Virus record (IMG/VR): IMGVR_UViG_3300030012_000504
Location: 1 to 29,377 of that record
Length of the DNA stretch: 29,377 bases
Strand: one strand, 5' to 3'
Origin: a virus
Below, piece by piece: positions 16,974 to 21,962 of the stretch. The number at the start of each line of letters is the position of its first letter. The first letter of the stretch is position 1. The translations under genes were made by a program, and so were the position numbers. The notes below the pieces were generated by a model. It worked only from the letters and a program-made list of their open reading frames with translations, was not told the DNA's origin and did not search any database.

Positions 16974-17191
16974 TCTAAACCCCCCATATCTTTTAATGTT
17001 CCAAAACTATGGGTCAGAACAAATTCATCATCATCTAAATTAGTATCAACTTTTTCTAAATGATGAATTAAAGCATATAATCCCGCCTTTACTCCGCTAT
17101 GTTCAGCTTTAGTATGGCTATCATTTACCCATTCATCATCTGCAATAATATCTTCTGCGATATTTTTGATTCTATCTAAAGTAATTTTCAT
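16970..17191 (-). CDS. Hypothetical small acidic protein behind ribozyme 1
   Basis: 73 residues from the ATG at 17191 (MKITLDRIKNIAEDIIADDE). An in-frame extension upstream exists but reads through the ribozyme and the Shine-Dalgarno hairpin, so it is not coding. The sequence is acidic and helical (SGVKAGLYALIHHLEKVDTN), with no known domain. GGAGGGG lies ~9 bases before the ATG. It ends in an ATGA overlap with the 88-residue gene, so this ribozyme-released mRNA is bicistronic. Confidence 0.68.
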   Translation of the reverse strand: MKITLDRIKNIAEDIIADDEWVNDSHTKAEHSGVKAGLYALIHHLEKVDTNLDDDEFVLTHSFGTLKDMGGLE

Positions 17192-17226: not shown

Positions 17227-17281
17227 TTCTAATTTCATGCTTTTGCAATCATCAGCCAAGATACACATCTTGATATTAGAA
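17227..17281 (-). ncRNA. Hammerhead ribozyme 1 (type III)
   Basis: Minus-strand RNA. Stem III UUCUAAU (17281-17275) pairs with AUUAGAA (17233-17227), 7 bp. Cleavage site AUA, with A17 at 17274. Stem I UCAAGAU-GUGU-AUCUUGG (17273-17256), 7 bp including one U-G pair. Core CUGAUGA (17255-17249). Stem II UGC-AAAA-GCA between two unpaired U (17248 and 17237). GAA at 17236-17234 followed by A15.1 at 17233. Every invariant hammerhead base is present. Self-cleavage would fall between 17274 and 17273, leaving the stem I hairpin at the 5' end of the mRNA for the 73-residue protein. Confidence 0.93.
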
Positions 17282-17291
17282 ATTTGATGCG

Positions 17292-17329
17292 GGAAGAAAA
17301 AATATTTACTGGTAAATACTTTTTCCTCC
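17292..17329 (-). repeat. 18-bp hairpin at the 3' end of the VWA gene (repeat TATTTACYRGTAAATA)
   Basis: Arms 17329-17312 and 17309-17292 pair over 18 positions in minus-strand RNA; the two non-Watson-Crick positions are G-U. The inner part is TATTTACTGGTAAATA on the plus strand. It lies between the stop at 17344 and ribozyme 1, so after cleavage it would protect the 3' end of the upstream fragment. Confidence 0.8.
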
Positions 17330-17343
17330 ACACCAATTTGCGA

Positions 17344-18748: not shown

Positions 18749-18797
18749 CTGTTTCATAGTTTCCTAATCATCAGTTGCGATACACATCGCAAGACAG
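18749..18797 (-). ncRNA. Hammerhead ribozyme 2 (type III)
   Basis: Minus-strand RNA. Stem III CUGU (18797-18794) with ACAG (18752-18749), 4 bp. Cleavage site GUC, with C17 at 18793. Stem I UUGCGAU-GUGU-AUCGCAA (18792-18775), perfect 7 bp. Core CUGAUGA (18774-18768). Stem II UAG-GAAA-CUA inside a U-U mismatch. GAA at 18755-18753. The stem I sequence differs from copies 1 and 3 at several positions with pairing kept, while loop GUGU and core are constant. The short stem III is the weakest point. Cleavage would fall between 18793 and 18792, ahead of the VWA gene. Confidence 0.88.
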
Positions 18798-18800
18798 TAT

Positions 18801-18838
18801 GCGAAGAAAAATATTTACTAGTAAATAGTTTCCTCCGC
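18801..18838 (-). repeat. 18-position hairpin at the 3' end of the DUF3150-like gene
   Basis: Arms 18838-18821 and 18818-18801 pair in minus-strand RNA at 17 of 18 positions, counting two G-U pairs. The centre TATTTACTAGTAAATA is a perfect palindrome. It lies between the stop at 18851 and ribozyme 2, the same placement as at the neighbouring junctions. Confidence 0.8.
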
Positions 18839-19837: not shown

Positions 19838-19894
19838 ATTCTGATTTCATCATTTTTGAATCGTCAGTTGGAATACACATCCCAATATCAGAAT
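19838..19894 (-). ncRNA. Hammerhead ribozyme 3 (type III)
   Basis: Minus-strand RNA. Stem III AUUCUGAU (19894-19887) with AUCAGAAU (19845-19838), perfect 8 bp. Cleavage site AUA, with A17 at 19886. Stem I UUGGGAU-GUGU-AUUCCAA (19885-19868), 7 bp including one G-U. Core CUGACGA (19867-19861); the C is at position 7, the one core base that is free to vary. Stem II UCA-AAAA-UGA inside a U-U mismatch. GAA at 19848-19846. Stem sequences differ from copies 1 and 2 with pairing kept. Cleavage would fall between 19886 and 19885, ahead of the DUF3150-like gene. Confidence 0.93.
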
Positions 19895-19902
19895 GAGCGG
19901 AA

Positions 19903-19937
19903 AAGGAATATTTACCAGTAAATAATAAATATTCCTT
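19903..19937 (-). repeat. 12-bp hairpin at the 3' end of the MoxR gene (repeat TATTTACYRGTAAATA)
   Basis: Perfect arms AAGGAATATTTA (19903-19914) and TAAATATTCCTT (19926-19937) around a loop that contains the second half of the ATTTACCAGTAAAT palindrome. It lies between the stop at 19954 and ribozyme 3. Confidence 0.75.
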
Positions 19938-19953
19938 AACTCGCCATGTAAAT

Positions 19954-21018
19954 TTAGATTTCTAAATCTTGGTTATCAATCTTGAACTTAGAATATACAT
20001 CGCACTCTTTGAGTTCGCTTCTAAGTCCAGTAATTTTTCTAACAAAGAATATAGAAAATTCTACAGTCGAAAGTTGCTTCAAATAATTCAAAGCATTTTC
20101 AAAGTAGTCATAAACATTACTTTCATTTGCTCCATTAATTGCAGTTGTTAATGCAATCGTGGTCGCATAGCAAAGACCCGCTTCATCTATAACTTCAACA
20201 TCTTTGCCCTTACATATATCAGATATGTTTGGAACATCATTTTGAAGTGAGATAAAGTTCATCAATTCAATAGCTGATTCTTGTCCAACATCGCCCTCGA
20301 ATAATTTTTGCATTAATCGTTTAGGCGGATTCGTTTTCAAAGTATCGCTTAACCTTGTCCAACTTCTTGGACTTGGCTGTGGGTCGTTGCATTTAGGGTC
20401 GAAGTCCCATAATAGTTGGGGCATGAATCTAATAAGACCTTGAACATTTAAGTCAATGTCGTTCTTATCTGCCCACTCTAACCAGTCGTCCACATCGTGA
20501 GTAAACTGGATAGCAGTAGTTCTATCTTGACAATGCCTAAGTATCTTATTCGCACCGCTTCTATCAGTATGTCTATTACCCGCCAAGACAATTTTCCACC
20601 CACTAGGAAAAACATAATCGCCAATTCTTCGCTCTTCGTTTTTACCTTTTGGGTCTAGTAATTGTCCTATCGTTGCTTGGACAGATGAATGTGCTTGTGC
20701 AAATTCGTCCAAGAAAAATAGACCCTCGCCACCTCTAGGCAAGTTGCCTAGAAATGCTTTCTTTTGAGTTCCCTCTTCAATGTAAGGCAACCCTCCCAAA
20801 TCAATAGATTCTACTAACCCAAGTCTAAAAGATATAAAACCAAATTCATCATCTTTAGGACTTACTGAATCAGTAAGAGTTCTATCGTTTGCTAGTTCTT
20901 CCGCAATCTCTTTAACTATTGCGGATTTACCAACTCCAGTACCACCAATTAAGAAAGGAATATTGCTCCCTTTCAAAATATGTAGGCATGAAGTTTTTGC
21001 TTCGCTTGGTTTAAACAT
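19954..21018 (-). CDS. MoxR-type AAA+ ATPase
   Basis: 354 residues from the ATG at 21018; the in-frame sequence before it is the Shine-Dalgarno hairpin. Walker A GGTGVGKS (25-32). The Walker B region GLFFLDEFAQAH near residue 100 is followed by QATIGQLLDP and a sensor-like WKIVLAGNR. PSPRSWTRLSDTL lies in the lid part. These features fit the MoxR/RavA branch, which remodels protein complexes together with VWA-domain partners. The metallopeptidase-VWA gene lies two cistrons downstream. Ribozyme 4 precedes and ribozyme 3 follows this gene. Confidence 0.88.
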   Translation of the reverse strand: MFKPSEAKTSCLHILKGSNIPFLIGGTGVGKSAIVKEIAEELANDRTLTDSVSPKDDEFGFISFRLGLVESIDLGGLPYIEEGTQKKAFLGNLPRGGEGLFFLDEFAQAHSSVQATIGQLLDPKGKNEERRIGDYVFPSGWKIVLAGNRHTDRSGANKILRHCQDRTTAIQFTHDVDDWLEWADKNDIDLNVQGLIRFMPQLLWDFDPKCNDPQPSPRSWTRLSDTLKTNPPKRLMQKLFEGDVGQESAIELMNFISLQNDVPNISDICKGKDVEVIDEAGLCYATTIALTTAINGANESNVYDYFENALNYLKQLSTVEFSIFFVRKITGLRSELKECDVYSKFKIDNQDLEI

Positions 21019-21038: not shown

Positions 21039-21052
21039 TTAAGTTTGTTATT

Positions 21053-21071
21053 TGCTATCAGATTGATAGCA
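21053..21071 (-). other. 8-bp hairpin at the 5' end of the cleaved MoxR mRNA
   Basis: TGCTATCA (21053-21060) and TGATAGCA (21064-21071) are perfect complements around a 3-base loop. After ribozyme 4 cuts, the mRNA would begin UUGG and enter this hairpin within about five bases. It could shield the 5' end from RNase E-type decay. Confidence 0.65.
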
Positions 21072-21130
21072 CCAAGACTAGATAATTTCTTATCTAGTTT
21101 CGCCTAAATCTCATAGGCTCATCAGTTGGT
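21071..21130 (-). ncRNA. Hammerhead ribozyme 4 (type I)
   Basis: Minus-strand RNA, with stem I open instead of stem III. Stem I ACCAA (21130-21126) with UUGGU (21075-21071). Core CUGAUGA (21125-21119). Stem II GCCUA/UAGGC with 7-base loop (21118-21102). GAA (21101-21099). Stem III ACUAGAUAA-GAAA-UUAUCUAGU (21098-21077), perfect 9 bp. Cleavage site GUC, with C17 at 21076. All invariant bases and all three helices are intact. The core contains the TGA stop of the upstream gene (21124-21122). Cleavage would fall between 21076 and 21075. Confidence 0.96.
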
Positions 21131-21406
21131 TAATCCATGGATATTTATTTTCCATGAAGCATAAGGTGACCAGTCATATTCTGATAATCCAAAAATCTTT
21201 TCAGCCTTTTGATTATCGAAGAAAGCTACATCATCATTTATTATGTCGTGTAAAATACTTTCGAAACATATCTCGATAATGTAATCTTCATCTTTTGTTT
21301 CTCTAACAATAAAACCTAAATCTTTTCTATATTCAGATAAGTTTTCAGATTCAATCCAGTTCTCAAAAGATTCGTGAACATGATTAATTACTTTTTTAAT
21401 ATTCAT
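21122..21406 (-). CDS. Hypothetical small acidic protein, first gene of the ribozyme operon
   Basis: 94 residues (MNIKKVINHVHESFENWIES, YIIEICFESILHDIINDDVA, FGLSEYDWSPYASW). Acidic alpha/beta protein with no recognised family. GGAGGG in the UUGGAG hairpin lies ~8 bases upstream. Its stop TGA and the next TGA together form most of the CUGAUGA core of ribozyme 4, so a terminating ribosome would physically cover the ribozyme. A degenerate hammerhead-like element lies in its own leader. Confidence 0.7.
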   Translation of the reverse strand: MNIKKVINHVHESFENWIESENLSEYRKDLGFIVRETKDEDYIIEICFESILHDIINDDVAFFDNQKAEKIFGLSEYDWSPYASWKINIHGLTN

Positions 21407-21425: not shown

Positions 21426-21483
21426 ACAGTTTCTTGAACCCCATAATTAGGATTCTCATTCAGCTTGTTAATTCAAGGACTGT
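21426..21483 (-). ncRNA. Degenerate hammerhead-like element 5
   Basis: Minus-strand RNA in type III order. Stem III ACAGU (21483-21479) with ACUGU (21430-21426). Cleavage site GUC (C17 at 21478). Stem I CUUG/CAAG. Stem II GAAUCC/GGGUUC. GAA at 21433-21431. The core reads CUGAAUGA, one base too long, and two extra A precede GAA. An alternative hairpin GGACUG/CAGUCC (21494-21477) would sequester the cleavage site. It may be inactive, slow, or switchable. Confidence 0.45.
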
Positions 21484-21599
21484 TGGAGCAGTCCCAAAAG
21501 TTATATATAAATGTTCCATTGAAATAGCTATTCCCAACTGGGAGCATTTTTACCAATTTTTGTATTATGATTTTTGGAATCAAAAGAACAAATATAATT

Positions 21600-21841
21600 T
21601 CCTTTTGGATTTATGAGTCTTGCAAACTTTTCAGACCTACTCTTCTTTATTGAATTTGTAGTCTCTCTCACACTAGCCACTTTAAGGGCGGATTCAAACT
21701 AGGACTTCGACTTACAAGACTAAATTACTTTGCGAACCTCATCCCTAGTTCTACTGCTAGAACCTCATTCAACTTTACTCTTTTCAGAACCTCTAGGGTA
21801 GTTGGCTACAGTTTAGAGACATAATCGTTTTGGTCTTTGTT
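21600..21841 (-). other. Structured leader of the ribozyme operon
   Basis: About 240 non-coding bases just after the operon promoter. The minus-strand RNA can pair CCCUA (21798-21794) with UAGGG (21747-21743), enclosing hairpin GUUCUA-GCAG-UAGAAC (21763-21748). GUAG-CCAA-CUAC lies just upstream. GAGGUUC occurs three times (near 21735, 21761, 21787). It shares the 12-mer GAAAAGAGTAAA with the other long leader (near 12760). No tRNA or intron fold could be completed. The remainder, 21484-21600, holds a TCCCA/TGGGA dyad (21532-21543) and no gene. Confidence 0.4.
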
Positions 21842-21847
21842 GAGAAC

Positions 21848-21875
21848 ATTATACATGAGTCAGACATCATATCAA
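21848..21875 (-). promoter_or_regulatory. Leftward sigma70-type promoter of the ribozyme operon
   Basis: Minus strand: TTGATA (21875-21870), 16 bases, perfect TATAAT (21853-21848). Predicted start near 21841. It is the only strong leftward promoter I find between here and the terminator at 16655, consistent with one long transcript. A copy of the dispersed palindrome lies just upstream. Confidence 0.7.
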
Positions 21876-21884
21876 CATCATAAT

Positions 21885-21902
21885 AAATATTTACTGGTAC
21901 AT
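21885..21902. repeat. Dispersed palindrome copy at the operon promoter
   Basis: AAATATTTACTGGTACAT, a copy of TATTTACYRGTAAATA with one changed base in the right arm, 10 bases upstream of the -35 box. This placement would suit an operator or an enhancer-like site. Confidence 0.6.
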
Positions 21903-21962
21903 AGTATTCGATAGCATTTTGTGAGCATTATATTTTCTTCATATCTAAGATAAGATTTCAGT

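Follow-up and report, generated by a model that had tools for sequence, protein, structure and literature searches.

A Type I Hammerhead Ribozyme at the Stop Codon of an Exchangeable Phage Gene: Position in Relatives and Possible Role

In the phage DNA studied here, a gene of 94 residues reads into a hammerhead ribozyme, and its stop codon is part of the ribozyme core. The question was whether this overlap links translation to mRNA processing, as the first-pass annotation had proposed, or is a by-product of where the ribozyme is placed. Hammerheads that lie between the genes of phages have been on record since 2011, but to our knowledge it has not been clearly explained why one type or another is used. 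The window, that is, the whole stretch analysed, is the whole 29,377-base record of an uncultured phage that is probably marine. Its terminase shared 52-61% identity with those of the Pelagibacter phages HTVC027P and HTVC023P and of two other uncultured or recently described phages.

Hammerhead Ribozymes in the Window

The minus strand carried an operon from 21406 to about 16700, which comprised the 94-aa orphan ORF, a MoxR-like AAA ATPase, DUF3150, DUF2201/VWA, and small genes. The 94-aa ORF (21122-21406, minus strand) is a cargo gene with a good SD, and its protein had no relatives in IMG/VR, PHROGs/Pfam, or cultured phages. The ATPase gene (19954-21018, minus strand; phrog_1297) lies downstream of the type I ribozyme. 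A structural scanner that required the core, GAAA, UH, and three helices gave exactly four matches in the window, and none in 100 second-order Markov-simulated windows. They comprised a single type I copy, with C3 at 21125, and type III copies at 19867, 18774, and 17255. The type III copies, all on the minus strand, were located before the DUF3150 gene (19838-19894), the DUF2201/VWA gene (18749-18797), and a small gene starting at 17191 (17227-17281), and in all three the cut lay 61-73 nt behind the upstream stop.

The 94-aa ORF ends in ATC CAT GGA TTA ACC AAC TGA, followed by a second in-frame TGA, and positions 21119-21130 of the minus strand read ACCAACTGATGA. The codons ACC AA(C) provide the 5' strand of stem I (ACCAA, 21130-21126), which pairs with UUGGU (21075-21071). 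Next comes the core CUGAUGA (21119-21125), in which UGAUGA occupies 21124-21119 and the first UGA is the stop of the ORF. Stem II (GCCUA-UGAGAUU-UAGGC, 21102-21118) has the conserved loop UGARAU, and GAAA is followed by stem III (ACUAGAUAA-GAAA-UUAUCUAGU; 21077-21101 together), a closed hairpin that marks type I; both regions, on the minus strand like the rest, showed covariation. According to the hammerhead rule for H17, cleavage is predicted at GUC^UUGG, between 21076 and 21075 (minus strand). The 5' end of the downstream product would then carry the hairpin GCUAUC-AAUCU-GAUAGC (21053-21071, minus strand; z = -3.6).

The MFE folds of the 73- and 97-nt strands were both the type I hammerhead at 21125 (z = -3.5 and -4.0, respectively). 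The core CUGANGA...GAAA...UH was present at a three-way junction, the helices covaried, and the open end lay at stem I, as in a type I hammerhead. The type I copy would presumably cleave itself in the cell. The results agreed with the first-pass annotation that the core holds the stop of the 94-aa ORF (ACC AAC TGA TGA being the stem I strand plus the core CTGATGA) and that the last codons of the ORF give one strand of stem I. Likewise, the sole type I copy of the window was the sole overlapping copy, the other three being type III and all situated in non-coding gaps.

Conservation of the Ribozyme Structure

Related loci were gathered using the 359-aa ATPase as the query, and the ribozyme was not used in the search. 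A type I hammerhead was found upstream of the ATPase in most of the 41 loci, and about ten were without it. The relatives are metagenomic contigs, save the named cultured phages; the type I and type III relatives are those among the IMG/VR matches listed, and the family is larger than the sample. Since the copies came partly from closely related phages and are not independent, counts are also given by family.

In 20 distinct type I copies, 96.1% of the cells were paired compared with 28-45% in slid controls, and stem I was paired in 41/41 copies; both sets came from the scanner, which requires pairing, so these percentages are inflated, and the compensatory changes are unaffected. In the 20-sequence set, 91 double-change cells were observed versus 31 in shuffles, a level reached in 0/500 shuffles, and both-side changes occurred at 13/19 pairs. 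Double changes were present at 4/5 and 8/9 of the pairs of helices II and III, respectively, and at one pair of helix I. The covariation signal was carried by helices II and III; stem I varied less, with both-side substitutions at pairs 1-4 among the 41 copies. Two close variants, L006 and L011, carried an additional U after A9, and L004 an additional C; a loss of activity is therefore possible in some of the copies.

At gathering thresholds, Rfam gave no match in the window and 12 relatives, and the ribozyme reached none of the thresholds of RF00008, RF00163, and RF03152. The best scores were 30.0 bits for RAGATH-1 (RF03152) against a threshold of 56.3, which is far below it, and 25.6 for Hammerhead_3 against 48.5. 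The ribozyme resembled RAGATH-1 in its type I-like core and closed stem III but differed from it in the periphery of stem I. The search of the source genome with RF00163 gave no match, but the control search was likewise without a match, so that this negative has no weight. The DNA of the ribozyme region gave only chance-level matches to cultured phages. Furthermore, no hammerhead folded in the first 49.9 kb of each of the cultured phages nearest by terminase (HTVC027P, HTVC023P, DSL-LC04, and 023Pt_psg01), nor in 48 bacterial genome stretches fitting a loose hammerhead pattern.

Position of the Stop Codon in Relatives

The survey of stop positions covered 53 non-redundant type I copies for which an upstream ORF could be identified; it used the first stop base relative to C3 and an ORF length cut of 35 codons. 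These ORFs belonged to 36 families without mutual BLASTP match at 1e-5. The most frequent position was -8 (29/53, in 17 unrelated families), where a UAA abuts the 5-bp stem I. This count is conservative; on inspection, at least two of the copies listed as distant or ORF-less, L027 and L028, had a shorter ORF ending at -8. The other positions were -7 in two copies, -9 in two, -12 in three, and further upstream in six. The stop was at +1, on the core UGA, in 4/53 copies (3/36 families), and at +8, on a UAG in stem II, in 7/53; the ORFs of the latter run through the core, and their proteins end in ...PTDD. Altogether, 47/53 of the upstream ORFs stopped between -12 and +8 of C3. The abutment of UAA was kept with the unrelated stem I ATTGA/UCAAU (UAA at -8 in L025, L027, L028, and L031), and L104, which has a 6-bp stem I, had its UAA at -9.

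The four core-UGA stops were found where the in-frame UAA is missing, with TTA in the window and CAA in L009, L012, and L063. The sequence CUGA holds UGA in one frame, and hence an ORF entering the ribozyme ends there with a chance of 1/3. The observed proportion was 4/11 of the ORFs entering the ribozyme, which equals the chance share and indicates that the coincidence of stop and core was not selected. A single-base sequencing error was considered as the cause of the overlap and rejected: restoring the A of the usual TAAACCAA leads to a frame stopping in loop II and not to a UAA. Such an error is also needless, as L034 has the same TTAACCAA.

The expectation that the stop stays inside the core in relatives was not borne out, for separated stops exist, the core UGA was used in the four copies only, and in L004 (99% identity in the ATPase) about 55 nt and a hairpin separate stop and core. 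The exact overlap is therefore incidental. The conserved rule is a broader one, in which the type I ribozyme regularly stands at or just behind the stop of swappable genes. Of the geometry suggested for translation and processing, the exact overlap was not kept in relatives, and the broader placement was. The position -8 is tighter than tolerance of overlap demands, which the punctuation reading given below does not account for; the further constraint may be the clearing of ribosomes or a common origin of the TAAACCAA word.

Beyond the P-site codon, the footprint of a bacterial ribosome extends about 15 nt in the 3' direction. During termination at the stop, a ribosome would cover stem I and the core, and cleavage might then occur only after translation pauses or ceases. 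Two points agree with this: a ribosome at any of the stops between -12 and +8 would mask the 5' strand of stem I, and ORFs unrelated to one another abut the ribozyme in the same way, also where the stem I sequences are unrelated. However, the position of the stop, which a translation-coupled switch would be expected to conserve relative to the core, varied over this range and beyond it, occlusion at a terminating codon would be brief, and a shared regulatory logic is not obvious for unrelated ORFs. Moreover, compactness and the cut position of type I give the identical geometry, and the sequence evidence does not favour gating over packing. Translation-gated cleavage is considered unlikely. 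A version in which stem I begins where translation ends and termination licenses cleavage would give a protein-free link between translation and processing, serving many unrelated cargo genes exchanged at the ribozyme; this is likewise unlikely. Gating becomes directly testable through the natural variants, whose stops are found at -8, at +1, at +8, or some 55 nt away.

Alternatively, the stop may serve the ribozyme, being kept at or before it so that elongating ribosomes do not unfold it. Each of the three reading frames of the window copy meets a stop in the 5' half of the ribozyme (UAA at -7, UGA at +1, and, for the remaining frame, the UGA of loop II). Where an ORF misses the UAA, the core UGA or the UAG of stem II ends it. 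The UGA in CUGA and that in loop II are, however, there for catalytic or structural reasons, and the seven ORFs stopping at +8 are translated through the core, which makes such clearance of ribosomes improbable as the main explanation.

Ribozyme Type and the Proposed Role

A type I hammerhead is cut 3' of its core and stays on the upstream RNA, whereas a type III hammerhead is cut 5' of its core and stays on the downstream RNA. Only a type I ribozyme can therefore overlap the upstream ORF without harm, and this cut topology accounts for the type I copy alone overlapping an ORF in the window. For the type III copies with an upstream ORF (n = 72), the stop was 34-186 nt before the cut, and overlap with the ORF occurred in 0/72. 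Among genomes with a hammerhead at the DUF3150-VWA junction, 14 had type III and 4 had type I; for the ATPase-DUF3150 junction, the respective numbers were 25 and 1. At the orthologous junctions switched to type I, the UAA again lay directly against stem I, also when the stem differed in sequence. The contrast first noticed in the window, with type I at or just behind the stop and type III at a distance, proved general. Ribozyme type predicts the distance of the upstream stop, also when the type switches at one gene junction. This type-dependent distance would follow from which cleavage product keeps the ribozyme.

Built on the anatomy, the covariation, the stop positions, and the swapping of ORFs at the ribozyme edges, which are read from the sequences themselves, the reading we consider probable is that the type I hammerhead separates the message of exchangeable cargo from the conserved downstream operon, and that, within this operon, the genes are separated from one another by type III hammerheads. 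The ribozymes would cut the polycistronic phage transcript and thus punctuate its messages, the conserved downstream operon consisting of the MoxR-like ATPase, DUF3150, and the VWA protein. With the cut 3' of the core, the upstream message would retain the stop and the whole type I ribozyme and would have the hairpin of stem III as its end; the downstream message would start with UUGG and a hairpin. A type I ribozyme could sit directly on the stop because no part of the ORF would be lost. In the window phage, which has TTA at -8 in place of the in-frame UAA, the ORF runs two codons into stem I to the invariant UGA of CUGA, and the core UGA may act as a built-in fail-safe, a fallback stop. The stop overlap would be a by-product of a type I ribozyme placed right behind exchangeable ORFs.

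Exchange of Cargo Genes and the Ends of Messages

In 7 loci, the homology between the window and its relatives broke at the stem I base (21131-21135), and in 13 loci it did so at the 3' end of the ribozyme (21075-21079); in 13 loci it resumed just after the downstream hairpin (21045-21049). On the other side, it broke near the start codon of the cargo gene (about 21387-21404, 30 loci). The 94-aa gene is one of many ORFs set between two hammerheads, the upstream one being hammerhead-like. These ORFs have been exchanged at the ribozyme edges. With the ribozyme edges as seams for unrelated cargo genes, RNA punctuation could make a phage operon modular. If recombination history alone were at work, the word TAAACCAACTGA would be a homologous seam for cargo swaps, expression would not depend on where the stop lies, and the ribozymes would be passengers or selfish markers. 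This reading fits the breaks exactly at the ribozyme edges and the 36 unrelated ORF families, but it is very improbable: selection for folding is evident from the conserved cores and from the double substitutions in stems II and III, and the stop abutment is also found where orthologous junctions have not been swapped and stem I is different.

In L012, L033, L107, and L141, two or three type I hammerheads were close together with different ORFs upstream, which suggests arrays of ribozyme-separated cargo genes.

The start of the downstream product had a mean folding energy of -7.1 kcal/mol in 54 type I copies, compared with -2.3 kcal/mol when shuffled, and it folded below -4 kcal/mol in 45/54 of them. 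The type III copies were preceded by a strong hairpin, often TTTACNNGTAAA, with a mean MFE of -15.8 vs -6.6 for base-shuffled sequences (76 copies). In the window, such a hairpin surrounds TTTACTGGTAAA upstream of a type III copy (19902-19937, minus strand), and similar ones are at about 18803-18838 and 17292-17330. The downstream product of type III begins with stem I itself. In L025 and L027, a hairpin like that before the type III copies serves as stem III of the type I copy. For the hammerheads as separators of messages, we infer that each cut is flanked by end-protecting hairpins, which would stabilise the messages.

Comparison with Known Hammerheads

Clustered hammerheads of prophages flank single genes in Agrobacterium tumefaciens (ardA), Clostridium scindens, and Azorhizobium, and they cut in vitro and in E. 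coli; it was proposed that long phage transcripts are cut by them to single-gene mRNAs (Perreault et al. 2011, PMC3088659). As in that study, two or more coding-strand hammerheads flanked genes of one phage operon, and the present operon was similar in having several hammerheads of different types between its genes and variable gene identity. It was different in combining a conserved operon with an exchangeable cargo slot and in the hairpins on both sides of each cut. The phrase "stop codon" was absent from the main text of PMC3088659 in a text search, and neither stop overlap nor type-dependent spacing was found there. In a partial coverage of the literature, no precedent beyond PMC3088659 was found for stop-overlapping phage hammerheads, translation coupling, or pelagiphage ribozymes.

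HHphage of the haloviruses HF1/HF2 is a hammerhead that directly precedes a phage gene, and a 5' end has been mapped close to its cut (PMC3088659). The present ribozyme likewise stands just upstream of a phage gene. HHphage differs in being a single variant upstream of a helicase, and the passage on it describes no relation to an upstream stop. In rodents, Clec2 mRNA 3' UTRs hold discontinuous hammerheads (Martick et al. 2008, cited in PMC4041007). They share with the present type I copies a position in the 3' UTR of a protein-coding mRNA, but they are discontinuous and eukaryotic and do not separate cistrons.

Structural Variants and Neighbouring Elements

Six type I copies (L002, L004, L006, L011, L012, and L038) had a three-way-junction insert in stem III, consisting of UUAAACCAGUA-NNN-GUAA-NNN-ACUG plus ACCC..GGGU, with compensatory changes. 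A similar layout was observed in L059, L065, and L104. The insert might be a stabilising or ligand-binding domain. In stem II, a U.U mismatch at 10.1/11.1 usually occurred with A at H17, and G-C with C; the type III counts for the 10.1/11.1 pair and H17 were 55 for UU-A, 4 for UU-C, 7 for GC-C, and 5 for GC-A. Functional coupling and shared descent are both possible reasons for this association.

Between the cargo gene and the divergent gene for the small subunit of the terminase, the region 21500-21950 (minus strand) forms a long leader that is partly conserved among the loci. The leader was without tRNA, tmRNA, or Rfam match, and may be a non-coding RNA with a structure of its own.

A fifth, non-canonical hammerhead-like element was located upstream of the 94-aa gene (21429-21478, minus strand), with the loop GAAUUAA, the core CUGAAUGAG, and AAGAAAC in place of GAAAC. 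Its stem II has the form GNAUCC..GGNUNC, and the element was found in about 45 loci. In the window, it is probably degenerate or altered, and it could be a regulated or decayed ribozyme. A leader hairpin GACUG..CAGUC lies 5' of the element and competes with its stem III. Canonical relatives of the element were present in L046, L063, L104, and L105.
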